Assembly: GCA_913063525.1 (NCBI GenBank)
Contig: CAJXYV010000013.1
Coordinates: 1 to 32,573, forward strand
Source of the DNA: an uncultured Verrucomicrobiota bacterium
Lineage (GTDB): Bacteria; Verrucomicrobiota; Verrucomicrobiia; Verrucomicrobiales; Akkermansiaceae
Length of the DNA: 32,573 bases
Direction: 5' to 3'
The position numbers and the translations under genes are program-made. The notes under the pieces are model-generated. The model was not told the origin of the DNA. It searched no databases and was given only the letters and a program-made list of their open reading frames with translations. This document shows positions 7,537 through 29,530 of this stretch, piece by piece (within the stretch, counting starts at the first letter, position 1; the number at the start of each line of letters is the position of its first letter).

Positions 7537-9930
7537 TCACTCATGCGAGCTGACTTGATAGCCCATGCTCCGATAGGCAACGAGACGCTTGCGGTGCATG
7601 TGCGCCGTGAGTGGATGTTCTGGCTCAACGTAGTCGTAAATGCGAACTTCATCTTTGCCGGCACATTCACGATGGAGGCGGCCGGCGTATTGAACCAAGC
7701 GCCCCTTGAAAGACAGCGGAAGCGTGAGGAATAAAGTGTTTAGCTGCGGCAAATCAAATCCTTCGCCGAGAAGTGACGAAGTAGCGAAAAGAACAAATCC
7801 TTCACCGACGAGGCAATGTGCATCGATATTTTCCATAATCGCCGTACGTTGCTTTTTGCCCATGGCACCATCGATTCTATGGATTCGCGCGGCGAGACTC
7901 GGATTCACCGCTTTGAGCAAGCTCTCAAGAATTTCTAAATGTTCCCTCCGGTCGCTTAACACTGCACAGTTGCGACCTTCGGCTAGAGCGGCGGCAACAT
8001 CTGCGTTAATCTGCTCGTTTCTCCCCGTGTGATTGACTAGAAGATCCCAAACTTGGTGAATCGGCATTCGTGCTTCTTCAGCTGGGAGACCAAGGTGAAT
8101 ATCGCGAACGATAAGTTTACGAAGTATTCCAGATTCGTCTTTTGAATCCATCCGGTGATGGATCGGCCCGCATTGGAGGAACAATATCTTCTGAAGTCCA
8201 TCTTTCCGAATCGGCGTGGCTGTGAGCCCCAGAAAAAATCGACAAGGACAAACCTTCATCACCGCCTCAAACGACGCTGCCGGAATATGGTGACACTCAT
8301 CGACGATGACCTGAGTGAAGGGCTCCAATAATGAAGGGGGATTCGGGGCTTTGGCGAGTGTTTGCACCATACCAACCACGACTCCACACGATAACGAATC
8401 AGACTTCTGGCCAAGAATGCCAATTTCTTTGGGATCCAATCCCAGAAAATCCCCCAGTCGCAAGCGCCATTGCTCAAGCAGTGGCTTACGGTGAACGAGG
8501 ACGAGCGTGGAAACATTGCGAGCAGCAATGATGGCACAACCCATAACCGTTTTCCCCGCTCCGGGCGGAGCAATCAAAACACCATCCTCATGTTTCAACA
8601 TCGCATCCACCGCGGTTTGTTGAGATGGACTCAATTCACCTTGAAATTTGAAAGAGCCCATCCTTTCCGCGGGACGGGCGTCTTCGATGAGCATGCGACC
8701 ACCCGCTTTTCGACACAAATCTAGCGCCGCTTGCGTGACACCCCGTGGCAGCATCAGCCGATTCGGGTGAATCTCTCCGCAGAAAATGAACCGAGGAATA
8801 TTATACATCCCAAGGCGAAGTCGCTGTTTCTCAAAAAACACCGGATTCGCCAAAGTCGCCAAACGTTTAAGCGCCGCAATCAGGCAAGCAGGAAGCTCTG
8901 AAGTAGAGATTTCCAATTGAGCATACCGTATCGCCTTGGCCGTTCCGGTGAATATACCCCGCGTGATTGCCTCAGGAATCACATCCAGCGCACGATCTTC
9001 GTATCGCACAAATATATCTTGTCCCGATTCCCCCTCCGTTACTGCGGGAGGCAAAGTGAAATCGACGAGATCATTGAGCTGCTCTCGGCTGATTCTTTGA
9101 AGTTCGGAAAGATAGCTCCACTGATCCCGGTGCGGTAAAAATGATTCGTCCACGAATACCGAGTTACCCAGTTCTCTGGGCTTTGCCTGCAAGGGAAGGG
9201 CAATCAAATTTCCAAATCCACCAGCAGGCAACTTGTCTTGATTCGGAAAAAAACGATCATATGACGACAATTTCATCACTGGGCGAAATGATGAGGCCTT
9301 TGCCACAATCAGAGTGCCGAGCCGCCTAGCCATAAGAGCCGGTATTGGCTCACCAAAGAAGATCCATGCGTGGCCACCATCCCCAGAGCGAGAGCGTTCA
9401 ATCGCAGGATCAACCCCCAACTCCTTCGCCGCAGCACAATAAGCCAGAACATCTTCACGCCAACCTTCTCCATCAAAATCGGCAGCAAGGAAGATACACG
9501 AGTCATCCTCACGAATGGCGTAAGTCCCGATCGTTTGCTTGCCCGTTAGATGATCACGCGCAACCAATTCATCAAACGGCGAGAATGCTTGGTGGAGACA
9601 TTGAGAACACTTCACCTGCGGTTTATCACAAATCCCCCTGACCCATTCATTCCGGCAAACGGGAGAATACCCCTTGCGACCTGATTTCGGATTTTCCCAA
9701 AGCCTTGGAAAAACGTCGCCACGGCAACGGAAAAGAGACAGAAACAAGCGGATCTTTTCCGATGGCGGCATCGGGAATGAGACGATACCCGCTTCCTCTG
9801 AAATGCTTGAGGTTACCAGCCTTTCACGTTCGTTGATCAGCGCCTCTCGCTTCTGTTCGAGCTCTAGGAGTTCCACGTCAATCTGGATCAGTCGGTTCAA
9901 CGACCGATTGATATGACTGAAAAACGGCAA
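7537..9930 (-). CDS. TOTE-type archaeo-eukaryotic primase fused to SF2 DEAD/DEAH helicase
   Basis: 797 residues from a TTG start (no ATG is available before residue 54). In order: a coiled coil (about 8-42); a primase module (55-290) with a cysteine cluster (C92, C101, C108, C111), the metal-binding pair in LAADFDGE (D151, D153), SRSGDGGHAW (H187) and SYDRFFPNQD; a linker; then a two-lobed SF2 helicase with Walker A APPGAGKT (454-461), DECHH (544-548), GLTATP (568-573), LLGEGFDLP and QYAGRLHR. This matches the AEP-TOTE plus helicase family proposed to act in conflict with mobile DNA. It lies 51 bases behind a VapC-like gene and is AT-richer than its neighbours, suggesting transfer. Defence function is inferred; the biochemical activity of this subfamily is not established to my knowledge. 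Confidence 0.85.
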   Translation of the reverse strand: MPFFSHINRSLNRLIQIDVELLELEQKREALINERERLVTSSISEEAGIVSFPMPPSEKIRLFLSLFRCRGDVFPRLWENPKSGRKGYSPVCRNEWVRGICDKPQVKCSQCLHQAFSPFDELVARDHLTGKQTIGTYAIREDDSCIFLAADFDGEGWREDVLAYCAAAKELGVDPAIERSRSGDGGHAWIFFGEPIPALMARRLGTLIVAKASSFRPVMKLSSYDRFFPNQDKLPAGGFGNLIALPLQAKPRELGNSVFVDESFLPHRDQWSYLSELQRISREQLNDLVDFTLPPAVTEGESGQDIFVRYEDRALDVIPEAITRGIFTGTAKAIRYAQLEISTSELPACLIAALKRLATLANPVFFEKQRLRLGMYNIPRFIFCGEIHPNRLMLPRGVTQAALDLCRKAGGRMLIEDARPAERMGSFKFQGELSPSQQTAVDAMLKHEDGVLIAPPGAGKTVMGCAIIAARNVSTLVLVHRKPLLEQWRLRLGDFLGLDPKEIGILGQKSDSLSCGVVVGMVQTLAKAPNPPSLLEPFTQVIVDECHHIPAASFEAVMKVCPCRFFLGLTATPIRKDGLQKILFLQCGPIHHRMDSKDESGILRKLIVRDIHLGLPAEEARMPIHQVWDLLVNHTGRNEQINADVAAALAEGRNCAVLSDRREHLEILESLLKAVNPSLAARIHRIDGAMGKKQRTAIMENIDAHCLVGEGFVLFATSSLLGEGFDLPQLNTLFLTLPLSFKGRLVQYAGRLHRECAGKDEVRIYDYVEPEHPLTAHMHRKRLVAYRSMGYQVSSHE

Positions 9931-9981: not shown

Positions 9982-10437
9982 CTACGCGCGAAGGAGCAGT
10001 CTCAAGTCGAGACCTTGATCGCGGTGTGCAGCAAAATCCCCATCAAGCGCGACCAGAGTCAATTTCCCGCAGACTGCAAAAGCCGCTAGGTAGGCGTCCA
10101 TCCAAACCTTGGGAGATGCCGAATCAAGGTCCGCAAATTCGTGCCAGAGGTCGCGGGTCCCAGCAGGTTCGGCATCTATCATCCGCACATTGGAATGAGC
10201 ATGGCAGTCGCTGAGTATTTTCAGAGCGTCACGATTACTAACTGGAGCACAATCGTAACGCCGATGCAGTGCTGGCGTGGTGAGGAGACGCAGACACGAT
10301 TGTTCGGTAGCACGGCAGAAGCATGCAGGCGCGTCGGGCGTCGCCTGCGAAAAGAAATCGTTTGCTAGCTCATGGTGATCGTGCCCCTCAAAAGCAGCCG
10401 CAATCCAGAGGTTCGTATCAATCAAGAATCCCGGCAT
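9982..10437 (-). CDS. VapC-like PIN-domain toxin
   Basis: A 151-residue PIN protein. The acidic residues are in FLIDTNLW (D7), RATEQSCLRLL (E45), VWMDAYLAAF (D114) and ALDGDF (D132/D134). The TTPALHRR segment is typical of a VapC subfamily with longer toxins. By family it is a Mg-dependent endoribonuclease that cleaves tRNA or rRNA until neutralised by its antitoxin. It overlaps the upstream antitoxin by 20 bases, so the two are surely co-expressed. The primase-helicase gene follows 51 bases later on the same strand. Confidence 0.88.
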   Translation of the reverse strand: MPGFLIDTNLWIAAAFEGHDHHELANDFFSQATPDAPACFCRATEQSCLRLLTTPALHRRYDCAPVSNRDALKILSDCHAHSNVRMIDAEPAGTRDLWHEFADLDSASPKVWMDAYLAAFAVCGKLTLVALDGDFAAHRDQGLDLRLLLRA

Positions 10438-10723
10438 GGCGAAGGTCTTCCTCTTCGTTGGCTTGCTGGATAATTTTCAGGCTCTCATCCAGAGTCGGTG
10501 GGACAAAACCCGGCGACTTGCGCGAGCGGATGACAGGAAGACCGGTTCTGGGATGAACCCCAAGCTGCGGCTTTTGGCTAGGCATGGTAGATGTGACTGT
10601 CCGAACATCCAAACCACAACGAAGCAAATCAGCAACAAGATCCGCCACCCTTCGACCTTCGCTGGAGGCACGGGCCTTCACGTCCCGAATCAATGGCTCC
10701 GGCAGATCAAAGATCGTTTTCAT
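10418..10723 (-). CDS. VapB-like ribbon-helix-helix antitoxin
   Basis: 101 residues from ATG 10723 (the track's 200-residue version extends through the promoter). The N-terminus MKTIFDLPEPLIRDVKARASSEGRRVADLVADLL is a ribbon-helix-helix DNA-binding domain. The C-terminal half contains GLPVIRSRKSPGF and an acidic helix, the kind of tail that wraps the toxin. It is the first gene of the minus-strand unit vapB-vapC-(primase-helicase). It probably represses its own promoter. Confidence 0.85.
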   Translation of the reverse strand: MKTIFDLPEPLIRDVKARASSEGRRVADLVADLLRCGLDVRTVTSTMPSQKPQLGVHPRTGLPVIRSRKSPGFVPPTLDESLKIIQQANEEEDLRHAGILD

Positions 10724-10729
10724 ACCATC

Positions 10730-10758
10730 ACACTGCCACAAATAAGAATTTTTGTCAA
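10730..10758 (-). promoter_or_regulatory. Promoter of the vapBC / primase-helicase unit
   Basis: Minus strand: a consensus TTGACA, 17 bases, CAGTGT, 6 bases, ATG. The -10 box is weak but the -35 is perfect and the spacing correct. A second TTGAC lies 16 bases further upstream, a possible operator half-site pair. Confidence 0.4.
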
Positions 10759-10855
10759 TTTTGCGATTTTTCGCGTCAAAGGCTGTCACAATTTGCCACG
10801 ACCCGCAGATTTCCTGCGTCTCGACGCGCTTTGCCAGTTGCGCTGTCCGCTCGGC

Positions 10856-11863
10856 ATGGCAAAGTCTGCCAAGAAATCGATGATCACAGATAACTTGCAA
10901 GAACGGATCGAGGAAACCAGTGGCTGGATTCAGTCGGTGAAAAATGAAATGGCGCAGGTGCTCGTCGGCCAGGAGCGCTTGGTAGACAGGTTGCTGATCG
11001 GACTGCTGTGCAACGGCCACATCCTGCTGGAAGGCGTACCCGGCTTGGCCAAAACCTTAGCGGTCAAGGCCCTTTCCGGTTCCTTGCACGCGTCGTTTGC
11101 ACGCTTCCAGTTCACTCCCGACTTGCTGCCCGCCGACCTCGTCGGGACGATGGTCTATCACCCGCAGGAAACGAAGTTCGAGCCGAAGCTTGGACCAATC
11201 TTCAACAACCTGATCCTCGCCGATGAAATTAACCGCGCTCCGGCCAAGGTACAATCCGCTTTGTTAGAGGCGATGCAGGAGCGCCAAGTGACGCTGGGCG
11301 ACCGCTCGTACCCGCTGCCCAAGCCGTTTCTCGTGCTGGCGACGCAGAACCCGATCGACCAGGAAGGCACCTATCAGCTGCCCGAGGCGCAGCTCGACCG
11401 CTTCCTCCTCAAAGTCACCGTCGGCTACCCGACGAAGGATGAGGAGTTAGAAATTCTCGACCGGATGGCGACCTCCACCCCCCCCTATGAAACCAAAACC
11501 GTGGCGATGCCCGAGCAAGTCGCCGCCTCGCGTGACTTGGTCAACGAAGTTTACATCGACCCGGCGATCCGCAAATACATCGTTCAAATCATCCACACGA
11601 CGCGCTTCCCCGGCCTTGTCGATGCGTCTTTGAAAAACCTCGTTCGCTCGGGCGCCTCGCCGCGCGGCACGATCAATCTCGCGCTCACCGCGCGAGCCCG
11701 TGCCTTCATGCAGGGCCGGGCCTACGTCACGCCGCAGGATGTGAAAGACATGGCGCTCGATGTCCTGCGTCACCGGATGTTACTCACCTACGAAGCCGAG
11801 GCCGAGGAGATGACCACCGATGCGGTGATCGAGCGGATCATGAATAAAGTCGCGGTGCCTTGA
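10856..11863 (+). CDS. moxR: MoxR family AAA+ ATPase
   Basis: 335 residues. Walker A GVPGLAKT, Walker B with LADEINRA, sensor 1 ATQNP and the arginine-rich C-terminal lid (RHRMLLTYEAEAE) define a MoxR ATPase. The family acts as chaperone-like assembly factors working with von Willebrand A proteins, which follow immediately. The track start at 10436 runs backwards through vapB. The plausible starts are ATG 10856 (used) and ATG 10880 (MITDNLQERI), and the family alignment fits both. It is the first gene of a six-gene operon ending at 18688. Confidence 0.9.
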   Translation: MAKSAKKSMITDNLQERIEETSGWIQSVKNEMAQVLVGQERLVDRLLIGLLCNGHILLEGVPGLAKTLAVKALSGSLHASFARFQFTPDLLPADLVGTMVYHPQETKFEPKLGPIFNNLILADEINRAPAKVQSALLEAMQERQVTLGDRSYPLPKPFLVLATQNPIDQEGTYQLPEAQLDRFLLKVTVGYPTKDEELEILDRMATSTPPYETKTVAMPEQVAASRDLVNEVYIDPAIRKYIVQIIHTTRFPGLVDASLKNLVRSGASPRGTINLALTARARAFMQGRAYVTPQDVKDMALDVLRHRMLLTYEAEAEEMTTDAVIERIMNKVAVP

Positions 11864-11877
11864 GACATTTCTGATTG

Positions 11878-12771
11878 ATGCTAACAGACGCACAAATCGA
11901 AGAAATGATGGCGCGCGTGCGCAAGCTCGAGCTCAAAGCCCGGCGCTTGGTGCGCGAATCTTTTTCTGGCGAATACCTGTCCTCGTTCCGCGGGCAGGGT
12001 TTGGATTTCGACGATTTCCGCGAGTACCAACACGGCGACGAAGTCCGCTTCATCGACTGGAACGTGACGGCGCGGATGAACCAGCCATTCGTCCGTAAAT
12101 TCCGCGAAGAGCGCGAGCTATCGGTGATTCTGGCGGTCGATGTTTCAGGTTCGGCCGACTATGGCAGCGTGTTCCTGAGTAAACGCGAAGTCGCGGCAGA
12201 GACAGCGGCGGTGCTGGGATTTAGCGCGCTACACAACGGCGACAAAGTAGGACTGCTGATCTTTGCCAACGAGCCGATCCTTTTCATCCCACCCGCAAAA
12301 GGCAGTCGCCACCTGCTGCGGATGATCCGCGAAATCCTCGTCGCCAAGCCGACCCAACCTGGAACCTCCGTCGCGGAAGCCTGCGATTTCCTCGTCCGCA
12401 CGATGCGCCGCAAGTCGCTGGTTTTTCTCATCTCCGACTTCTTCGCCGACTCGTTAGACAAACCCATGGGCAAGCTGGCGCGGAAACACGAGACGATCGC
12501 GCTGCGGGTGTTAGACCCGCTGGAATCCAAACTCCCGACCGCAGGCAAGGTCGTCATGATCGACCCCGAAACCGGATTCGAAACGCTGGTGAATACCGCA
12601 AACCAAAACCTGCGGATGAGCTACTCGAAGCTGATGAAACGCCAGCGCGAAGGCGCGGACGCGGCTTTCAAAAAACACGGCATCGACTCCGCGGATTTAA
12701 AAACCAATGGCGACACGCTGGCGGCGCTGCACCAGCTCTTGAAAAAACGCAGCCGCAAACGCGCTGGATAA
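11878..12771 (+). CDS. DUF58 domain protein (vWA-like)
   Basis: 297 residues from ATG 11878, 14 bases after moxR. The DUF58 hallmark FREYQHGDEVRFIDWNVTARM is followed by a von Willebrand A-like fold with VILAVDVSGSADYGS (a metal-site DxSxS variant, DVSGS) and LVFLISDFF. It is a constant partner of MoxR and Bat proteins; it is predicted cytoplasmic or membrane-associated and its exact biochemical role is not known. No leader, signal peptide or membrane segment is visible. Confidence 0.88.
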   Translation: MLTDAQIEEMMARVRKLELKARRLVRESFSGEYLSSFRGQGLDFDDFREYQHGDEVRFIDWNVTARMNQPFVRKFREERELSVILAVDVSGSADYGSVFLSKREVAAETAAVLGFSALHNGDKVGLLIFANEPILFIPPAKGSRHLLRMIREILVAKPTQPGTSVAEACDFLVRTMRRKSLVFLISDFFADSLDKPMGKLARKHETIALRVLDPLESKLPTAGKVVMIDPETGFETLVNTANQNLRMSYSKLMKRQREGADAAFKKHGIDSADLKTNGDTLAALHQLLKKRSRKRAG

Positions 12772-12777
12772 TTCTTG

Positions 12778-13284
12778 ATGAACGAAAAGTCAGCCACCTT
12801 TCAACTGCTAGAACCACCCTCGCCCGAGGCCTTGGTTCCTCATTCGTGGCTGGAACCGTGGATGATCGCCGTGGCCGTGATCCTAGCCGCGCTGGTCGCT
12901 TTTTTGATTTTCAGAAAGAAGAAAACCGCGGCATTCGACTCGCTTTCTTTGAGGCAGGCCGCCTACGCCAAAGCGGCGGGCGCGTTAGAAAATATCGCCA
13001 CAACCGCCGCGCGGGATGCTGCGGTGCAATGCTCACTGATCCTGCGGAGTTATCTTGCCACCGCCGTCTGCGACCCGATGCTTTTTGAAACTCACGAGGA
13101 AACGCTGTCGCGCCACGACTCATTGAAAGGATTTTCTGACACCGCGCGACTCGCCGCACAGCACGGATTTTCCCGCCTCGCTTCGATGAAATACGCGGCG
13201 GAGATTCCCGACGCCGACGCACGGGAGGTGATCCAAGAATCACACACGCTACTCGAAACCCTGCACCACGGATTCCAATCATGA
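12778..13284 (+). CDS. Single-pass membrane protein, DUF4381-like (Bat operon)
   Basis: 168 residues from ATG 12778, six bases after the DUF58 stop. It has a short N-terminal region with LEPPSPEALVPHSW, one membrane helix (about 28-45, MIAVAVILAALVAFLIF) followed by RKKK, then a cytoplasmic helical domain. Size, topology and operon position match the DUF4381-like proteins between DUF58 and BatA genes, but sequence similarity alone would not prove it. Its stop overlaps the batA start (ATGA), implying coupling. Confidence 0.7.
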   Translation: MNEKSATFQLLEPPSPEALVPHSWLEPWMIAVAVILAALVAFLIFRKKKTAAFDSLSLRQAAYAKAAGALENIATTAARDAAVQCSLILRSYLATAVCDPMLFETHEETLSRHDSLKGFSDTARLAAQHGFSRLASMKYAAEIPDADAREVIQESHTLLETLHHGFQS

Positions 13285-14297
13285 GTGCGTTTTTCCAACA
13301 CTTCCGCTTTGCCCAGCCGGGCTGGCTATTACTCCTCTTGCCCGCGCTCCTGCTGCTGGCCCTGCGCCGTGGCAGAGGCACCGAGGCTGCTGTCATCTTC
13401 CCCAATCTATCAGTTCTTGTTAGCCTCGGCAGCCGTGCCCGCCAGATTGCTTGGAGCCTCGGGCTGCCGCTCGCGTTTCTCGCATTGTTCTGCGCGATCC
13501 TCGCCATGGCCCGCCCGATCTGGCGCAACGAATATCAGACACGTTCCGCCAGCGGCATCGATATCATGATCGCTCTGGATCTATCGCTGTCGATGGATAT
13601 CCCCGATTTCATCGACCGCGGGGAACATGTCAAACGCATCGAAGTCGCAAAAAAAGTCGTCGATGACTTCATTGAGCGCCGTCCCGAAGATCGCATGGGA
13701 CTGGTCGCCTTTGCCGGCCGACCGCGCGATGCCAGCCCGATCACGCTCGACCATCGCTGGCTGAGAAAGTCGTTAGACGAACTCCGCCTCAACGATCAGC
13801 AGGACAATGGCACCATCAAGGAGCAAGGCACGGCCATCGGCTCCGCCCTAGCAGCTGCGGCCGTGCGGCTCGAGGCCCGCGACGCCAAAAGTAAAATCAT
13901 CGTCCTGCTCACCGACGGTGCCAGCAACTCGGGGAAAATCTCCCCGCTCGAAGCCGCCGAACACGCCAAAACTTTGGGGATCAAAATCTACACTGTGGCA
14001 ATCGGCACCACGGAAGGCCGGGTCAGCACCAACGTCATGCGTTTCCCCTATCAGGAATTCGATTTACCCACCCTTCAGAAAATCGCCACGCTCACCGGCG
14101 CGGAACATTACTGGGCGCAGGATCTGGCCGCACTTAAAAAGACCTTCACCACCATCGACAGCCTGGAGAAAAGCAACGCCAAAAGCCTGACCGTCACCGA
14201 CGACACCGAACTCTTTCCGTGGTTCGTCGGGCTGGCACTGCTCGCGGCCCTCGCCTCTGCAGCCTACTTCGCCCTCAACCCACCCCCGTCCGCCTGA
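13281..14297 (+). CDS. batA: BatA-like von Willebrand A membrane protein
   Basis: 338 residues. An N-terminal BatA segment (FAQPGWLLLLLPALLLL) is followed by membrane helices near 15-29 and 56-77. The vWA domain has a complete metal-ion-dependent adhesion site start DLSLS (100-104) and VLLTDGASNSG. A C-terminal helix lies near 312-333. The vWA domain is expected in the periplasm between membrane helices. In the family, Bat proteins are linked to aerotolerance and envelope stress, but the mechanism is unclear. The gene overlaps its upstream neighbour by 4 bases. Confidence 0.88.
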   Translation: MSAFFQHFRFAQPGWLLLLLPALLLLALRRGRGTEAAVIFPNLSVLVSLGSRARQIAWSLGLPLAFLALFCAILAMARPIWRNEYQTRSASGIDIMIALDLSLSMDIPDFIDRGEHVKRIEVAKKVVDDFIERRPEDRMGLVAFAGRPRDASPITLDHRWLRKSLDELRLNDQQDNGTIKEQGTAIGSALAAAAVRLEARDAKSKIIVLLTDGASNSGKISPLEAAEHAKTLGIKIYTVAIGTTEGRVSTNVMRFPYQEFDLPTLQKIATLTGAEHYWAQDLAALKKTFTTIDSLEKSNAKSLTVTDDTELFPWFVGLALLAALASAAYFALNPPPSA

Positions 14298-14301
14298 GTC
14301 G

Positions 14302-16251
14302 ATGAATTTCGCCCAACCCGGCATTCTCTTTTTGCTGATCCTACTTCCGATCTTGGGCGCGGTGGCGATCTTCACGTCGCGCGCGCGGCGGCGGCAGTGG
14401 GCGGTATTCATCGCCCCGCGTTTGCGCGAATCGCTCTTGAAAAAAAGCAGTTCCCTGCCCCGCTGGCTCGCGCTGTTTTTCCTGCTCACCGCCTGCGCCG
14501 CCATCATCATCGCGCTGGCACGGCCGCGCGCAGACGCTGGCACCAAACAGGAAAAAACCCGCGGCCGCAATGTGATGGTCGCCCTCGACATTTCAAAAAG
14601 CATGCGGGTTACCGATGTGAAGCCGGACCGACTCGCCCAGGCCAAAGTCGTCATCTACGAACTGCTGGAAGCGATGCCTAACGAGCGCATCGGCTTCCTC
14701 GGTTTCGCCGGAACACCCAACGTTTACGCCCCGCTCACCATCGACCACAGTGCCGTGCGCGAGACGGTCGATCAGATCGACGAAACCTGGGCGCCGCTCG
14801 GTGGCTCAGACCTGGCCGCCGCCGTCCACCTCGCCACCGAGACGTTGAAAAAGACCGGCCAGAAAAACAACACACTCGTCATCATCAGCGACGGCGAAGA
14901 AATCCAAGACGAAAGCCACCACGGAGAACTCGAATCGATGATCGCCGAGGCGGAACACGCCGGAGTTTACATCGTCGCCATCGGCGTCGGCACCGAGGAT
15001 GGCGGCTTGGTCCCCAATCCGAATTCCCCCACGGGCCAAATGGTGGATCACGAAGGACACCCCGTCGTCAGCCGCTTGGAAGCCGGCGTCATGCGGAAGT
15101 TAGCGGAAGAAACCAAAGGCCGTTTCGCTATCGCCGGCTCCGGTCTAAATATCCCCACGCTGGTGAAATCCGTTGTCATAGGGATGGACGTCTATGAGAT
15201 GAGTGGTCGCGAAAAGCGCCTGTCGATCGAGTTCTACCAGTGGCTGATGTTTCCTGCGATTCTCTTCCTCACCGTCGCCATCGTGGCGGGTACTCGTTGG
15301 AAAGGAATCCGCGCGGCGATATTTCTTGCAGGCACATTTTTAACGATCCCCCGCACGCAGGCAAATGAGGCGGACATCGCTAGGGAAGCACTGGCAGGAC
15401 GACACTACCAAGAAGCCCGCAATGGCTATCACCAACTGGCGGAAACCTCGAAAATCCGGGAGACGCAGGCCCGCTACCGTCTCGGCGAAGCGACCGCCGC
15501 CTACCGCGCAGGAGACTTCCGCGAGGCGCGCAGCGCCTACAGCCAGTCCTTGCTTTCAGTCGATCCCAAGGTTCAAACCAGCGGCCACCTCGGCATCGCC
15601 AACTCGCTGTTCCAGCTCGGTTGGAAAGGTCTATCCGGGGAGAATTACCCCAGCGATCCCGCGTCGCTGCCAGACCTCAATCGCTTCGACACTATCGCCA
15701 AAGAGGCGCTCGCCAAACTCCGCGCCTCCGATGTACCCGACGAAGGCGAAGCCCCCGGCTATGTGCGGATCGAATCGCTGATCACTAACTGGGCCGATGC
15801 ATCTCGCCACTACAGCTCGGCACTCGCCCTGGCTCCCGGCGACTCTGTCGCGCAGAAAAACCGGGAGCTGACGATCACTTTTCTCAAGCGGCTCGATGAA
15901 TTGCTCAACGAGGAAAAAAAGAACACCGAGCAATCGATGCCCCAACACATGCCCGGCACCGGCCCGCCCCAAGAAGGTGAGGATGGCGACCCGAATGACG
16001 GCGAAGACGGCCCGGATGGTCGCAAAAAAAATGGCAAAAGAGGCAAGGGTGACAAGGATCCCAAAGACGGCAGCGACAAAGACGAAACCAAGAAAAAAGA
16101 CGACGCCGATGGCAAAGACAAAGACGGCGAAAACCCCAACGAATCATCCAAAGAACGCGCCCACCGAATTCTGAAGGAAAATGCGGATCTCGAAAAAGGC
16201 CCGCTTGCCCCGGGCCGCCGCGAATTCAAAAACGCAGAGAAAGATTGGTAA
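14302..16251 (+). CDS. BatB-BatC fusion: vWA domain plus TPR and charged tail
   Basis: 649 residues. Residues 1-335 are BatB: two N-terminal helices (7-24, 54-73), a vWA domain with DISKS (96-100) and VIISDGEE, and a third helix near 312-330. A second hydrophobic segment, AAIFLAGTFLTIPRTQA, looks like the relic signal peptide of a separate BatC. TPR-like helices (about 360-500) follow, then a very charged Lys/Asp/Gly/Glu stretch and a conserved-looking end (ERAHRILKENADLEKGPLAPG). Bacteroidota usually encode BatB and BatC separately. Spacing to batA is 4 bases and to the next gene 4 bases. Confidence 0.85.
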   Translation: MNFAQPGILFLLILLPILGAVAIFTSRARRRQWAVFIAPRLRESLLKKSSSLPRWLALFFLLTACAAIIIALARPRADAGTKQEKTRGRNVMVALDISKSMRVTDVKPDRLAQAKVVIYELLEAMPNERIGFLGFAGTPNVYAPLTIDHSAVRETVDQIDETWAPLGGSDLAAAVHLATETLKKTGQKNNTLVIISDGEEIQDESHHGELESMIAEAEHAGVYIVAIGVGTEDGGLVPNPNSPTGQMVDHEGHPVVSRLEAGVMRKLAEETKGRFAIAGSGLNIPTLVKSVVIGMDVYEMSGREKRLSIEFYQWLMFPAILFLTVAIVAGTRWKGIRAAIFLAGTFLTIPRTQANEADIAREALAGRHYQEARNGYHQLAETSKIRETQARYRLGEATAAYRAGDFREARSAYSQSLLSVDPKVQTSGHLGIANSLFQLGWKGLSGENYPSDPASLPDLNRFDTIAKEALAKLRASDVPDEGEAPGYVRIESLITNWADASRHYSSALALAPGDSVAQKNRELTITFLKRLDELLNEEKKNTEQSMPQHMPGTGPPQEGEDGDPNDGEDGPDGRKKNGKRGKGDKDPKDGSDKDETKKKDDADGKDKDGENPNESSKERAHRILKENADLEKGPLAPGRREFKNAEKDW

Positions 16252-16255
16252 CATC

Positions 16256-18688
16256 ATGAACAATTTGAAACATTTCATCTGCGGCATTTATGCCATCACC
16301 GTTTGCGCGCTGCTCTGCAGCCACAGCCATGGCCAGACGTCCAGCCGGCTCTCCACCACCTTTCTCGCCCGCGGCGAACAAGCGCTGTTGGAGGTCGCCG
16401 TCGTAGGAGCCCAACCCACCGAGATCCCAGAAATCGGGATGGTCAAAAACGTCACGATCCGCCCCTCCGGCAGAGGCCCGATGACGAGGATGCTGCCTGG
16501 CCGCAAACTGGAGTGCGTCTTCGAGTATCTGGTCAGCAGCTACGAAATCGGCACTTACGTCATCCCGCCGATCGAGGTCGCGGTGAACGGTGGCAAAAGC
16601 TTCACCGAGCCGCTCGATTTTTTGATCTTCAATCCCGACGAGCTCCAGTGGTCTGAGGTGCAGGCGAGCGGCAAAACCATCCGCTACGCCAGTTCCTTCC
16701 GCACGCTGAACGACAAGCCCTTTGAAAACGAGACGCTAGCCACCGAGATCAAAGTCTTCGTGCCCGAAGAACTGGTCGTCGAAGACTGGGGGATCCCCGA
16801 CTTCGAACGCGATGGAGTGGCCGCGTGGCGCTTCCAGCCGTCGGCCATGCGCAGTCGCATCAACTTGTTAGGGATGCGCTATGTCTCGGTCGCCTACCCT
16901 AGCACCATCACCCCCACCCGCAGCGGCAAGGTCGGCATCGGCCCCGCGAAGATCCGTCTCACCACGCGCGAAGTCGTCATGGACCCGACCACGCGCCAAG
17001 TGAACACCGAGGTCTACCTGCAGGTCCCCAAACTCGAAATCGAGGCCATGCCGCTGCCGGACCGCGCGCCCGCGGGTTTTGAAAACGCCGTCGGCAGCTT
17101 CCGGCTCAGCGCCACCAGCACCGCCAGCGAGGTGCAGGAAGGCGACCCGATCACCGTCGATCTCACGGTCAGCGGCAGCGGCAATCTCGACACGCTGCGT
17201 CCGCCGACACTGGCGGATCCTAACGGCTGGAAAGTTTACGGCACCACCACCGACCCGCGCGGCGACGAGCGCCGCCAGCTTTCCGGCAGTATCAGCTTCC
17301 ATCAGTCGATCCGCCCGCTGGAAATGAAAGCGGAAATCCCGTCATTCCGCCTCATCTACTTCGACCCCAGAGATGAAACCTACAAGACGCTCACCACCGC
17401 GCCCATCCCGCTGCAAATGCACCCCAACCCTGCGGCCAATCTGCCGCCAAGCGCCGTGCCGCAAGCGCCATCCATTCCATTAGAACGCATGACCGACATC
17501 CTCGCCGTGCTTCAGCCGGCCCGCCTCACTGCTCCCGCCACGGCGACTTTTCCCGCATGGATCGGCCACGCCATCGGCTCCTTCGTCGCGCTCTGTCTGA
17601 TCGCCCGAGCCTGGTTTTTGCGCTACGGCGCAAACCGTAGCAAATCCCCCGAGCATCTGGCACGCGTCGCAGCCCTCCGCGAGATCGAAAAATCCAGCCC
17701 CGCCGATGACAGCGCCTTCCTCAAATCCGCGGGAGCTTATATCGAACACTGGCTCGGCAGAAATCAGACTCCAGACGTCCAGGCGATCCTCGCCGAGCGC
17801 GACGCGGTTTGTTTCCGCGCCGAAAAACCCAAATCCGTGTTAGATTTCAAACGCCGCGCCCAAATCCTCGACATCCTCCGCAAGGCCGCCGTCGCGCTCC
17901 TGTTCATCGCCGCCCTCGGCTGGCCCCAGCCCGTGCGCGCCGCAGACATCGCCAGCCAAGCCCTCGCAGCTTACGAATCCGCCAAATACGAAGACGCCGT
18001 CAAACTCTGGCTCAGCGCCGGAAACTACAACGAGCTCGCCGCCGACACGCTCTATAACATCGGCAACGCCTGCTACCGCGCAGGCTCCCCCGGCCAAGCC
18101 GCGCTCTACTACCGCCGCGCCATCGCTCGCAATTCCAGCCACCCCGAAGCCCGCCAAAACCTGCGTTTCCTCGAGCGCAAATACGGTTCGATCGTCGTCC
18201 AGCGGCCCGACTACCAATACGCGCTCGCTAGGTTTCCACTCGGTGCCTGGCAAGCCGCCTGTTGGAGTGGCCTGTGGCTTTGCGGCCTGGCCCTGCTCGT
18301 TTTCCCCGCCACGCGGCCGGGTGCCCGCCTGCGTCTCGTCGCCGTCGGTGCTCTGGTGTTAGGCCCCATCCTCGCTTCGGCCGGGGCACTGGGTTGGCAC
18401 TATTTCCCGGACGACGCCGAGTTTTCGCCGCTCCCAACCCAGGCCGTGGTCATCGAGGAAAAAGTCACCCTCCACGCCGACGCCGCCCGCACCTCGCCAG
18501 AAATTATCGATGCCCCACCCGGCTCGCTGTGCGAAGTCATCAGCCGCTCCGGCCGCTGGGTCTACATCGCCTTCGCCAGCAAAACCCGCGGCTGGGTGCC
18601 CATCGAGTCGATCGAAATGGTGATCCCCAGCCAGCCCCCCGCCCCGCCCAAGTTCCAAAAGCCCAAGGCCGACGGCAAAACGGCCTGA
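16256..18688 (+). CDS. BatD-BatE fusion with C-terminal SH3-like domain
   Basis: 810 residues from ATG 16256; the track start at 16181 overlaps batB-C. A signal peptide (1-26, ending HSHG) leads into BatD beta-sandwich repeats (about 30-400) and a membrane helix near 435-455. Next comes a cytoplasmic stretch, then a second signal-like segment (AAVALLFIAALGWPQPVRAAD) that probably marks the old BatE start. TPR helices follow (YNIGNACYRAGSPGQAALYYRRAI), then two membrane helices and an SH3b-like domain (EEKVTLHADAARTSPE ... RGWVPIESIE). BatD-E are thought to be periplasmic scaffolds for BatA-C. It is the last gene of the operon. Confidence 0.85.
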   Translation: MNNLKHFICGIYAITVCALLCSHSHGQTSSRLSTTFLARGEQALLEVAVVGAQPTEIPEIGMVKNVTIRPSGRGPMTRMLPGRKLECVFEYLVSSYEIGTYVIPPIEVAVNGGKSFTEPLDFLIFNPDELQWSEVQASGKTIRYASSFRTLNDKPFENETLATEIKVFVPEELVVEDWGIPDFERDGVAAWRFQPSAMRSRINLLGMRYVSVAYPSTITPTRSGKVGIGPAKIRLTTREVVMDPTTRQVNTEVYLQVPKLEIEAMPLPDRAPAGFENAVGSFRLSATSTASEVQEGDPITVDLTVSGSGNLDTLRPPTLADPNGWKVYGTTTDPRGDERRQLSGSISFHQSIRPLEMKAEIPSFRLIYFDPRDETYKTLTTAPIPLQMHPNPAANLPPSAVPQAPSIPLERMTDILAVLQPARLTAPATATFPAWIGHAIGSFVALCLIARAWFLRYGANRSKSPEHLARVAALREIEKSSPADDSAFLKSAGAYIEHWLGRNQTPDVQAILAERDAVCFRAEKPKSVLDFKRRAQILDILRKAAVALLFIAALGWPQPVRAADIASQALAAYESAKYEDAVKLWLSAGNYNELAADTLYNIGNACYRAGSPGQAALYYRRAIARNSSHPEARQNLRFLERKYGSIVVQRPDYQYALARFPLGAWQAACWSGLWLCGLALLVFPATRPGARLRLVAVGALVLGPILASAGALGWHYFPDDAEFSPLPTQAVVIEEKVTLHADAARTSPEIIDAPPGSLCEVISRSGRWVYIAFASKTRGWVPIESIEMVIPSQPPAPPKFQKPKADGKTA

Positions 18689-20764: not shown

Positions 20765-22744
20765 TCAAAGGTACTTCATGAAGGCCGTGTAAACCTCCGA
20801 CGGGATGTCCAACAGGCTGTAGTCCTTGGCCGAGACAAACAGCAGGCTTTGCTTGCCCTTGCCTAACAACTCGTTTTCAGAGCCGAAGATTTGGTGCTCG
20901 AGGGTGCAGAACTTGCGGTTAAAGTCTGAGACGCGGATTTTCACGGTGATGGTGTCAAACTCGCGGGCCTCGCGCACGAACTTGTGTTCGAAGGAGCGGG
21001 TGAGGATATAGAAGTGAGTGGTCTTGAGGTCGAAGTCGGGCATCGCCTTGTTGAAAAACAACTCGCGAGCCTTGCCGACAAACATCGCATACATCCCGAA
21101 GTAAACATTTCCCACGGAATTCGTGTCGGAATAACTGGCGATGGATGAATAGACGAACCACTTATCCTCGAAATGACCACCGAAGGCGTGGCCATCTTGA
21201 GGTGCCACCACATCGGAGCCAGTGATCACCGTTGCGGTTTTGGTGATGGCGCGGATCGCGGGAATTTCCGAAGCAGCCTCGATCACCTCCCCGGCTTTTT
21301 CCGTGACCACCCGCAGCAGGTCGGCGTTGAAGACCAGCCAGATCACGTAAACCAGCGGCAAAACCGCGCCGAGAATGAGCAGCGAAGTTTGGCCATTCAA
21401 GTAGCCGAAGGCGAAGATCACCAGCGAGAGGCTGGCCATCGAGAACATCCGGATTTGTGGCAGCGGATTCTGCGAATTGGGGACAAAGCAGCGCGCGATC
21501 GCCAGCGCGGCATAGCCGACAAAAAACGAGGCATAGAATACCATGAAATACTCCAGCTCCAGCTTGGCCCAAATGCCGATCAAGGTGACGAGACCGACGA
21601 TAAGGAATGTAGGAATCGGCGAGCCGAGGATCTGTTTTGGGATCAGCGAAATGAGCATGTTTTCGCTCTTCTCGACGTTCTTTTCGAGGAACCACTTCAG
21701 CGCGACGTAGCCGCTGTCGAGCGTGGTCAACGCACAGATCGCTAGGAAAGAAAAGTAGGCCAGCGGCATCACGCTGCCGGGCTTGAAGGCCTTGGTGAAG
21801 TACTGGGTGACTAGGTCATGGGCGTACATGAACCCGTCGAGCCCCGGCTGTGCGGCGAGCGGCTGCCCCTCCTCAGTCATCACCCACAGCGCCAGGCAGC
21901 CGTGGAACAAAAGCATCAAGAAAAAGATCGACCCGCCAAAAAAGTAGCTGGCGCGGATGGAGGTCTTTTCCCGGTGGATCTGGATCGCCCGCTGCCAGTG
22001 TTGCAGGTCCAACCAAGGCCCGACTAGCAGACCGATGACCAGCGGGATCGCATACCCGAGCAGGGTCGGGCCGGTCCACAGTTTAGGGAATGGCTCGGAC
22101 CACTGAAGACCGGTCGGCACCAAGGGATTTAATCCGAACAGAATCGCCGCCACGCAGGCGACGAGTAGGCCGCCTAACATCGCATGACTCAGTTTGATCT
22201 TCTGAATGCCGAACTCCTCGCCAAACAAACAGCCGGCGACGAGAATCACAAATACCAGCAGACACAGGTAGAGGCTGAAAAGCGGACCCGTCGCTAAGTT
22301 CAACGGCACAAACAGGTACTTCACCAATGCAAACACCGTCAGCGCCAGCGCGACGATCTGGTAGAGATAGAGAATCAGCCGGAACGGTTTGGAGAATTTA
22401 TCAAAGAAAATGGCCAGCGACTCCTGCCCGCCGCTATGGGTTTGCGCCACCCGCTGGGTGAGAAATCCAAACAGCATCAAGCCCAACGCATTGGGGACTG
22501 CGAATAACAGCAGGCCCTGAAGGCCGAACATGAAGGTCATCTGGACGCTGAAAAACAGCCCCAGCCCCCACATCCACGACAATGCCACCGAATTCCCCCA
22601 CAGGACTGCGTTTAACCAGCGAAAGTTCATAAAGGATGCAAAGGAACCCCGATTTGCGCCATGGAGCAAGCCAGATTCCACCGAATTGAAAGAATTGGAT
22701 CTTTCGTCAGTTGAAGAAACCGTTTTGTCAGTTGAAGAAGCCAT
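20765..22744 (-). CDS. Permease (SSS/APC-like) fused to hotdog-fold acyl-CoA thioesterase
   Basis: 659 residues. An N-terminal Ser/Thr-rich stretch (1-38) is coded partly by a 21-bp tandem repeat. Residues 41-470 form about a dozen membrane helices (WGNSVALSWMWGLGLFFSVQ; GPWLDLQHWQRA resembles the helix-6 region of sodium-solute symporters). A linker (480-520) is followed by a hotdog thioesterase (about 520-655) with YSDTNSVGNVYFGMYAMFVGKARELFF. The latter is close to the DTN-x-GNVYF-x-Y signature of 4HBT/enediyne-type thioesterases. By inference it couples uptake or sensing of a small solute to hydrolysis of an acyl-thioester on the cytosolic side. The ATG lies in a repeat unit; M39 (ATGAACTTT) is an alternative start. 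The family of the transporter half is uncertain. Confidence 0.75.
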   Translation of the reverse strand: MASSTDKTVSSTDERSNSFNSVESGLLHGANRGSFASFMNFRWLNAVLWGNSVALSWMWGLGLFFSVQMTFMFGLQGLLLFAVPNALGLMLFGFLTQRVAQTHSGGQESLAIFFDKFSKPFRLILYLYQIVALALTVFALVKYLFVPLNLATGPLFSLYLCLLVFVILVAGCLFGEEFGIQKIKLSHAMLGGLLVACVAAILFGLNPLVPTGLQWSEPFPKLWTGPTLLGYAIPLVIGLLVGPWLDLQHWQRAIQIHREKTSIRASYFFGGSIFFLMLLFHGCLALWVMTEEGQPLAAQPGLDGFMYAHDLVTQYFTKAFKPGSVMPLAYFSFLAICALTTLDSGYVALKWFLEKNVEKSENMLISLIPKQILGSPIPTFLIVGLVTLIGIWAKLELEYFMVFYASFFVGYAALAIARCFVPNSQNPLPQIRMFSMASLSLVIFAFGYLNGQTSLLILGAVLPLVYVIWLVFNADLLRVVTEKAGEVIEAASEIPAIRAITKTATVITGSDVVAPQDGHAFGGHFEDKWFVYSSIASYSDTNSVGNVYFGMYAMFVGKARELFFNKAMPDFDLKTTHFYILTRSFEHKFVREAREFDTITVKIRVSDFNRKFCTLEHQIFGSENELLGKGKQSLLFVSAKDYSLLDIPSEVYTAFMKYL

Positions 22745-28438: not shown

Positions 28439-29530
28439 ATGAAATGGTCACTCAAACTCGGTAGTATTGGCGGCATTGGTGTCTACCTTCATTGGACGTT
28501 CGGCCTGTTGATCGCCTGGATTTTTCTGGCCCACCTTGGTGCGGGTCAGACGACTGGCCAGGCGGTCGTGGGGGTGGCATTTATCCTCGCGCTGTTTGCG
28601 TGCGTAGTGATGCACGAATTCGGCCACGCGCTGGTGGCGAAACATTGCGGGGTGCGCACTCGCGACATCACGCTGTTGCCCATCGGAGGCGTCGCCCGCA
28701 TGGAGCGCATCCCGGACAAGGCGATGCAGGAGTTCTGGGTCTCGGTGGCGGGGCCGGCCGTAAACGCCCTGATCGCGGGCATCTTGTTTATCGTTTTGGC
28801 GCTGTTTGACCATTGGCAGCCGGTCCGGACGCTGGAAGGACTGGAGGGCGGCTTTGTCGAGCAACTCATGTGGGTCAACCTCTTCATTGGCGCCTTCAAT
28901 CTGCTGCCCGCGTTCCCGATGGATGGTGGCCGCGTGCTGCGTTCCTTGCTGGCCACCCGCATGGGCCGCCGCCGGGCGACAGTCATCGCCGCCAATATCG
29001 GTCAGGTGATGGCAATTCTGCTCGGAGTCGTCGGCTTTTTTTACAACCCCGTTCTGATCTTCATCGCAGTTTTCGTTTACCTCGGTGCCCAGGCGGAAAT
29101 GGACTATGTCGAAACCCAGTCGGCGCTCGAGGGCTTGCACGTGCGCGACGCGATGATGACCCGCTTCCGCACGCTCGCAGCCGGCGACAGCGTCGGCACG
29201 GCGGTGGAGGAACTGCTGGCGGGGGCTCAGCAAGATTTCCCTGTTTTGGAGGATGGACAAGTTCTCGGCATCCTGCGCCGCAACGATCTGGTCAAGGCGC
29301 TGACAGATGGTCGCCAGACGGCGACCGTCGCGGACGTAATGTACCGGGAATGCATCCCCGTGGACGAGTCCGATGTGCTGATGATGACGCTGGAATCGAT
29401 GGGCAACAACCAAAACTCCAGCGTGCCAGTGCTTGGCCGAGGCCGCTTCGTCGGCCTACTGACGCTCGAAAACATCAGCGAACTGTTGATGGTCAACGCC
29501 GCCCTGACCGGTGTGGCACCAGCCCGCTGA
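28439..29530 (+). CDS. Site-2 protease family zinc metalloprotease (M50B) with CBS domains
   Basis: 363 residues. The membrane core has the zinc motif HEFGH (about 60-64) within VVMHEFGHALVAKHCGV, and the third ligand region NLLPAFPMDGGRVLR (about 158-172) with the Asp. Helices cover about 12-220. Two CBS motifs follow (VRDAMMTRFRTLAAGDSVGTAVEELL; VADVMYRECIPVDESDVLMMTLESMG), which usually bind adenine nucleotides and may sense energy state. By family it cuts substrates within the membrane, such as anti-sigma factors; none is adjacent. It has its own promoter. Confidence 0.92.
   Translation: MKWSLKLGSIGGIGVYLHWTFGLLIAWIFLAHLGAGQTTGQAVVGVAFILALFACVVMHEFGHALVAKHCGVRTRDITLLPIGGVARMERIPDKAMQEFWVSVAGPAVNALIAGILFIVLALFDHWQPVRTLEGLEGGFVEQLMWVNLFIGAFNLLPAFPMDGGRVLRSLLATRMGRRRATVIAANIGQVMAILLGVVGFFYNPVLIFIAVFVYLGAQAEMDYVETQSALEGLHVRDAMMTRFRTLAAGDSVGTAVEELLAGAQQDFPVLEDGQVLGILRRNDLVKALTDGRQTATVADVMYRECIPVDESDVLMMTLESMGNNQNSSVPVLGRGRFVGLLTLENISELLMVNAALTGVAPAR

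Follow-up and report, generated by a model that had tools for sequence, protein, structure and literature searches.

The window, by which we mean the whole 32,573-nucleotide stretch of DNA that was analysed, contains a complete bat (Bacteroides aerotolerance) operon, as judged from Pfam and NCBIfam matches and from gene order. It encodes MoxR, DUF58, DUF4381-like, BatA, BatB-BatC, and BatD-BatE products, and the succession of MoxR, DUF58, and BatA to BatE with matching domains, seen in Pfam, NCBIfam, and fold matches, is that of a Bat operon. The genes are as follows:

10844-11863, plus strand: MoxR-family AAA+ ATPase, operon gene 1 (PF07726, E 2.4e-62); start inferred, the longest ORF beginning at 10436
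11875-12771, plus strand: DUF58 (VWA-like) protein (PF01882, E 2.6e-77)
12775-13284, plus strand: DUF4381-like small membrane protein (PF14316, E 0.0015, below the cut-off), in the same place as DUF4381 in other bat operons
13281-14297, plus strand: BatA (VWA; PF07584, PF00092)
14302-16251, plus strand: BatB-BatC fusion ORF, 649 aa, proposed polyprotein precursor
16256-18688, plus strand: BatD-BatE fusion ORF, 810 aa from ATG 16256, proposed polyprotein precursor

The ORF at 14302-16251 joins BatA_N/VWA domains (PF07584, PF13519) to TPR-like helices, and the ORF at 16181-18688 contains BatD (PF13584) followed by TPR, a membrane hairpin, and a C-terminal beta-barrel. The more likely start of BatD is the ATG at 16256 (MNNLKHF...), 4 nt past the BatBC stop, rather than 16181; this ATG opens a signal peptide that is conserved in relatives. 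The ORF-finder start at 16181 would overlap BatBC by 71 nt. A match was found in each of the 59 relatives that were searched, and every full copy in the genus is one open frame through the junction, without stops. Each fusion is a single frame over both domain sets that is conserved among relatives. An assembly or frameshift artefact was ruled out, as both fusions are present in all complete genus members.

Other genes of the window were also annotated. Adjoining the bat operon upstream, the minus strand at 7537-9930 encodes a protein of 797 aa in which a TOTE conflict-system archaeo-eukaryotic primase domain (PF22548, E 2.8e-90) is fused to a ResIII/DEAD helicase. At 9982-10437 and 10418-11020, also on the minus strand, lie a PIN-domain protein and a preceding ORF whose C-terminal part resembles a small antitoxin; the second ORF had no Pfam match. 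These ORFs, just ahead of the MoxR gene, possibly form a VapBC-type pair. A 659-aa protein at 20765-22744 (minus strand) has a long N-terminal part that spans the membrane several times and matches no Pfam family, fused to a C-terminal hotdog thioesterase-like domain (PF13279, E 7.9e-10), which is an uncommon pairing. An M50 site-2-type protease with CBS domains is encoded at 28439-29530 (plus strand); proteases of this type are able to clear membrane remnants.

The two fusion ORFs were divided into the following parts:

14302-15294, plus strand: BatB part with TM1, TM2, periplasmic VWA, and TM3 (15235-15291); AF2 helices 6-36, 52-72, and 312-330
15295-15363, plus strand: internal signal peptide 1, with n-region RWKGIR, h-region AAIFLAGTFLTIP, and c-region RTQA; predicted signal peptidase I cut 15363/15364
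15364-16248, plus strand: BatC part with periplasmic TPR domain, disordered tail, and conserved C-terminus
16256-16333, plus strand: BatD N-terminal signal peptide (MNNLKHFICGIYAITVCALLCSHSHG); cut site placed by eye
16334-17560, plus strand: BatD Ig-like periplasmic domains (PF13584; AF2 beta domains)
17561-17635, plus strand: BatD transmembrane helix, out to in (AF2 helix 436-460; downstream stretch net positive in 36/36)
17855-17941, plus strand: internal signal peptide 2, with n-region RAQILDILRK and core plus c-region AAVALLFIAALGWPQPVRA; predicted cut 17941/17942
17942-18685, plus strand: BatE part with periplasmic TPR, TM hairpin (18239-18310, 18326-18400), and C-terminal beta-barrel (18440-18619), SH3-like by position

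In fold searches the best structural matches of the BatB part were the B. fragilis aerotolerance protein 4jdu and the solved BatB 3ibs, and BatDE gave weak Ig-like matches only.

An earlier note on this DNA had drawn attention to an internal hydrophobic stretch followed by a small-residue, cleavage-like site in both Bat proteins. Both strings are present exactly and in frame: AAIFLAGTFLTIPRTQA corresponds to residues 338-354 of the ORF at 14302-16251 (bases 15313-15363), and LLFIAALGWPQPVRAAD to bases 17897-17947 of the ORF at 16181-18688. Each has the n/h/c organisation of a signal peptide, AAIFLAGTFLTIPRTQA/NEAD with the predicted cut after 15363 and AAVALLFIAALGWPQPVRA/AD with the predicted cut after 17941 (the slash marks the cut). 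The internal segments combine a positive n-region, an uncharged h-region, and a small-x-Ala c-region with conservation, as expected of Sec signal peptides. In the AF2 models, the first peptide is a helix at 336-346 only, short and of low confidence, with pLDDT <50 at 346-351, and the second has pLDDT <50 at BatDE residues 547-562; confidence thus breaks at both sites, with well predicted domains on either side.

Conservation of the cut sites was examined in junction alignments of genus relatives (BatB/BatC, n=30; BatD/BatE, n=36). At the BC junction, position -1 is Ala in 29/30 sequences (Gly once; entropy, 0.21 bits) and position -3 is small in 29/30. At the DE junction, -1 is Ala and -3 is small in 32/36 each. 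The hydrophobic core is free to vary, and most neighbouring c- and h-region columns have entropies of 2 to 3.3 bits. Both junctions use every one of the four GCN codons for the -1 Ala, indicating that it is the residue and not the codon that is held, through selection rather than recent ancestry. In the best alignment column, [AGSTVC]-x-A was found in 28/30 rows (BC) and 28/36 rows (DE), compared to small-x-Ala column maxima of 12 and 13, respectively, over 2000 within-row shuffles. The positional conservation of the site at both junctions is therefore not due to chance. Counting motifs as proof of a signal peptide was dropped, because shuffled tails also contain the strict site (37/76 for BC and 37/54 for DE). 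Such a count is weak proof, since roughly half or more of the Ala-rich tails pass it by chance, and the case for signal peptides therefore rests on positional conservation.

We additionally compared bat operons drawn from the same order and phylum, calling signal peptides by rule (positive n-region, uncharged core, small-x-small site) rather than with SignalP. The internal peptide was scored in 77 of the 78 fused BatBC proteins and 53 of the 54 fused BatDE proteins; in the copies missed by the rule (L073, L047), the peptide is visible by eye. Two fused BC loci (L150, L152) pass the permissive rule but have no convincing cut site by eye, and some fusions may therefore remain uncleaved. Where the genes are separate, an N-terminal signal peptide stands at the matching place in 14/14 BatC and 33/33 BatE proteins (for example, MKRSLFGLGALLLSTTVHA/TDPRA in L122), and BatB of the split species ends 1 to 36 residues past the BatB domain, with its final membrane helix. 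These starting and end points indicate that the second gene has kept its signal peptide as the internal segment. The comparison of gene boundaries suggested in the earlier note supports its proposal that separate secreted genes are joined in frame. Its counterargument, namely close relatives of the same length without separate-gene ancestors, describes the close relatives only, and split forms occur further out. On the BatB tree (77 sequences), fused and split states switch at least 5 times (BC) and at least 3 times (DE), and since the tree is unrooted these switches cannot be assigned branch by branch to fusion or fission. The same genome has a second bat-like cluster (G000:C122, L070) in which BatD and BatE are separate ORFs and BatE starts with MNSLLLRGLFCFGLLGSALHA/AES; this BatE is one of the 33 scored above. 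This set and another second bat-like set, G000:C216 (L069), are cut by contig ends. The corresponding second set of the genus relatives L091 and L092 encodes a fused BatBC with a signal peptide inside; in L091 its BatE is a separate protein.

The predicted topology was assessed from charge. Among genus members, the mean net charge was +7.2 in the BatB TM1-TM2 loop (positive in all sequences), +2.3 in the loop from TM3 to the internal peptide (positive in 30/30), +5.6 in the stretch from the BatD helix to the internal peptide (positive in 36/36), and +2.6 in the BatE hairpin loop (positive in 35/35), and the residues past each predicted cut were negative on average. This bias predicts a periplasmic location for the VWA, the BatC TPR, BatD, the BatE TPR, and the BatE barrel. 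The topology predicted for the BatB half, a periplasmic VWA with three transmembrane helices, is that mapped experimentally for the homologue BB0173 of Borrelia burgdorferi, a VWFA protein of the aerotolerance type; unlike BatB-BatC, BB0173 has no fused TPR half described (PMC5700661). A signal peptidase I is encoded in the same genome (G000:C58; PF10502 over the cut-off). From the charge topology, the breaks in the AF2 models, and the signal peptidase I gene, both ORFs are read as precursors.

We consider it likely that each of the two fused pairs of envelope stress proteins, BatB-BatC and BatD-BatE, is a natural polyprotein that Sec threads and signal peptidase I then cleaves; we infer the cut, the enzyme, and a benefit in stoichiometry. 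Each fusion would be translated as a single chain, and its first half would enter the inner membrane with the C-terminal side ending in the cytoplasm, past BatB TM3 or past the BatD helix and a small cytoplasmic domain. The signal peptide that once began the product of the second gene would then serve as an export signal within the chain and thread the TPR half to the periplasm. A cut by signal peptidase I past the conserved Ala would release BatB and soluble BatC from one precursor and BatD and BatE from the other. Being fused, partners in the MoxR/Bat envelope complex would be synthesised 1:1 and delivered together. Such a cut would also leave a hydrophobic remnant on BatB or BatD, which we counted against the polyprotein reading.

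The main alternative, which we regard as improbable, is an uncut signal anchor, in which the segment is a fourth membrane helix and the periplasmic TPR stays tethered to BatB (or BatD). It predicts the same topology, and both the loci L150 and L152, with no good cut site, and the split BatC of Cetobacterium, whose start is anchor-like and has no evident cut site, speak for it, the latter indicating that a tethered TPR can work. However, an anchor has no need for small-x-Ala, yet -3 and -1 are the most constrained positions in an otherwise free c-region. The core of about 11 to 13 residues (11 in the model helix) is also short for a membrane span. Hydrophobic length as a test of transmembrane helix versus signal peptide was uninformative with the heuristic used, which did not separate the peptides from TM1 and TM3, both as short as signal peptides. 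The earlier note had left the choice between membrane anchor and cleavage site undecided; the conserved -3 and -1 positions, the free h-region, and the low-confidence breaks in the models favour a predicted cleavage site over an anchor.

A still less probable alternative is that the junction is cut only upon a signal, with fused versus cut BatBC serving as an envelope stress switch. Regulated cutting of a bacterial membrane protein by signal peptidase has a precedent in RsiV of Bacillus subtilis, which is cut only after lysozyme binding and is then degraded (PMC6066255). RsiV resembles the Bat proposal in being a signal peptidase substrate beyond the ordinary secretory pre-protein but is a single regulatory protein and not a two-protein precursor (PMC6066255). 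Bat-type genes respond to oxygen, being downregulated under aerobic conditions according to one report (PMC5700661), and in the AF2 models the TPR starts as a helix directly past the site. However, the residues from +1 to +12 are mostly variable and acidic near the site, with no evident conserved amphipathic helix as in RsiV, and in split species BatC is a separate protein anyway. Least probable of all, and hardly credible, is additional synthesis of BatC and BatE from in-frame internal starts, the segment being an ordinary N-terminal signal peptide: some members have an upstream in-frame GTG or ATG (ATG with GGAG in L021, L027, and L033), but its position is not conserved, and a start with a Shine-Dalgarno-like motif was found in only 5/30 (BC) and 1/36 (DE) members and at neither junction in the window.

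For the preferred polyprotein reading, the closest mechanism that we know of is that of FbcH, the cytochrome b/c1 precursor of Bradyrhizobium japonicum, in which two membrane/periplasmic partners share one ORF and signal peptidase separates them at the second partner's internal signal peptide. As in FbcH, the signal peptide of the second Bat partner lies at the fusion junction, and the split homologues begin with one. FbcH differs in that it yields unrelated respiratory proteins and in that its processing has been demonstrated experimentally, whereas that of the Bat fusions is predicted. To our knowledge, few bacterial polyproteins are matured by signal peptidase, and a literature search for signal peptides inside bacterial proteins turned up no direct precedent. 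Bat gene fusions themselves have been reported, including batB-batC in Leptospira biflexa and fusions in Francisella, Borrelia (among them the two-gene fusion bb0170), and Spirochaeta thermophila (PMC3557215; PMC5700661). Like the present ones, these place Bat neighbours in one frame, but the available portions of the two reports describe no internal signal peptide or processing (PMC3557215, PMC5700661). A literature search likewise found no report of a retained internal signal peptide or of processing of Bat fusions.

The same arrangement was seen in other phyla, the proteobacterial bat loci having been sampled from plasmid-collection records. Fused BatBC with an internal peptide occurs in the gamma- and betaproteobacteria examined, namely Vibrio, Photobacterium, Catenovulum, Pseudoalteromonas, and Cupriavidus (for example, FRKGLIYLVLVGFLSVPTSFKVSA/NPLD), and a split BatC beginning with a signal peptide occurs in Leptospira interrogans, Bacteroides finegoldii, and Legionella adelaidensis. 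The Legionella BatB ends with ...FRKGWLQKVQQ at the point where the fused Cupriavidus protein continues as FRKGWTIRWIVGIGAAVV.... Since Bat gene fusions were already known, what is new is their probable maturation as polyproteins, recurring over phyla. On balance, we lean towards signal-peptidase-matured polyproteins as a recurrent strategy of the MoxR/Bat envelope complex as a whole in several phyla, with the annotated VWA-TPR and BatD-TPR products representing two proteins each and the cut perhaps regulated in some lineages. If the Bat fusions are cut, many fused VWA-TPR and BatD database entries would represent precursors instead of mature proteins, and the subunit number and the soluble parts would have to be revised in models of the Bat complex. 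Repeated fusion and splitting of secreted neighbour genes would offer a simple evolutionary route at little cost, because the signal peptide still works inside the chain.

In Prevotella sp. oral taxon 299 (L178, 4511-6584), a BatD ORF contains a second, internal signal-peptide-like segment, STALKAILLFLGLQLFALSFVDVKVQA/ANIS, and its sequence suggests that a BatD-BatE fusion of the same kind, signal peptide included, occurs in Bacteroidota as well. The fused BatBC of Vibrio campbellii (L168, 2782-4807) carries more than 100 consecutive glutamines beyond the TPR domain.
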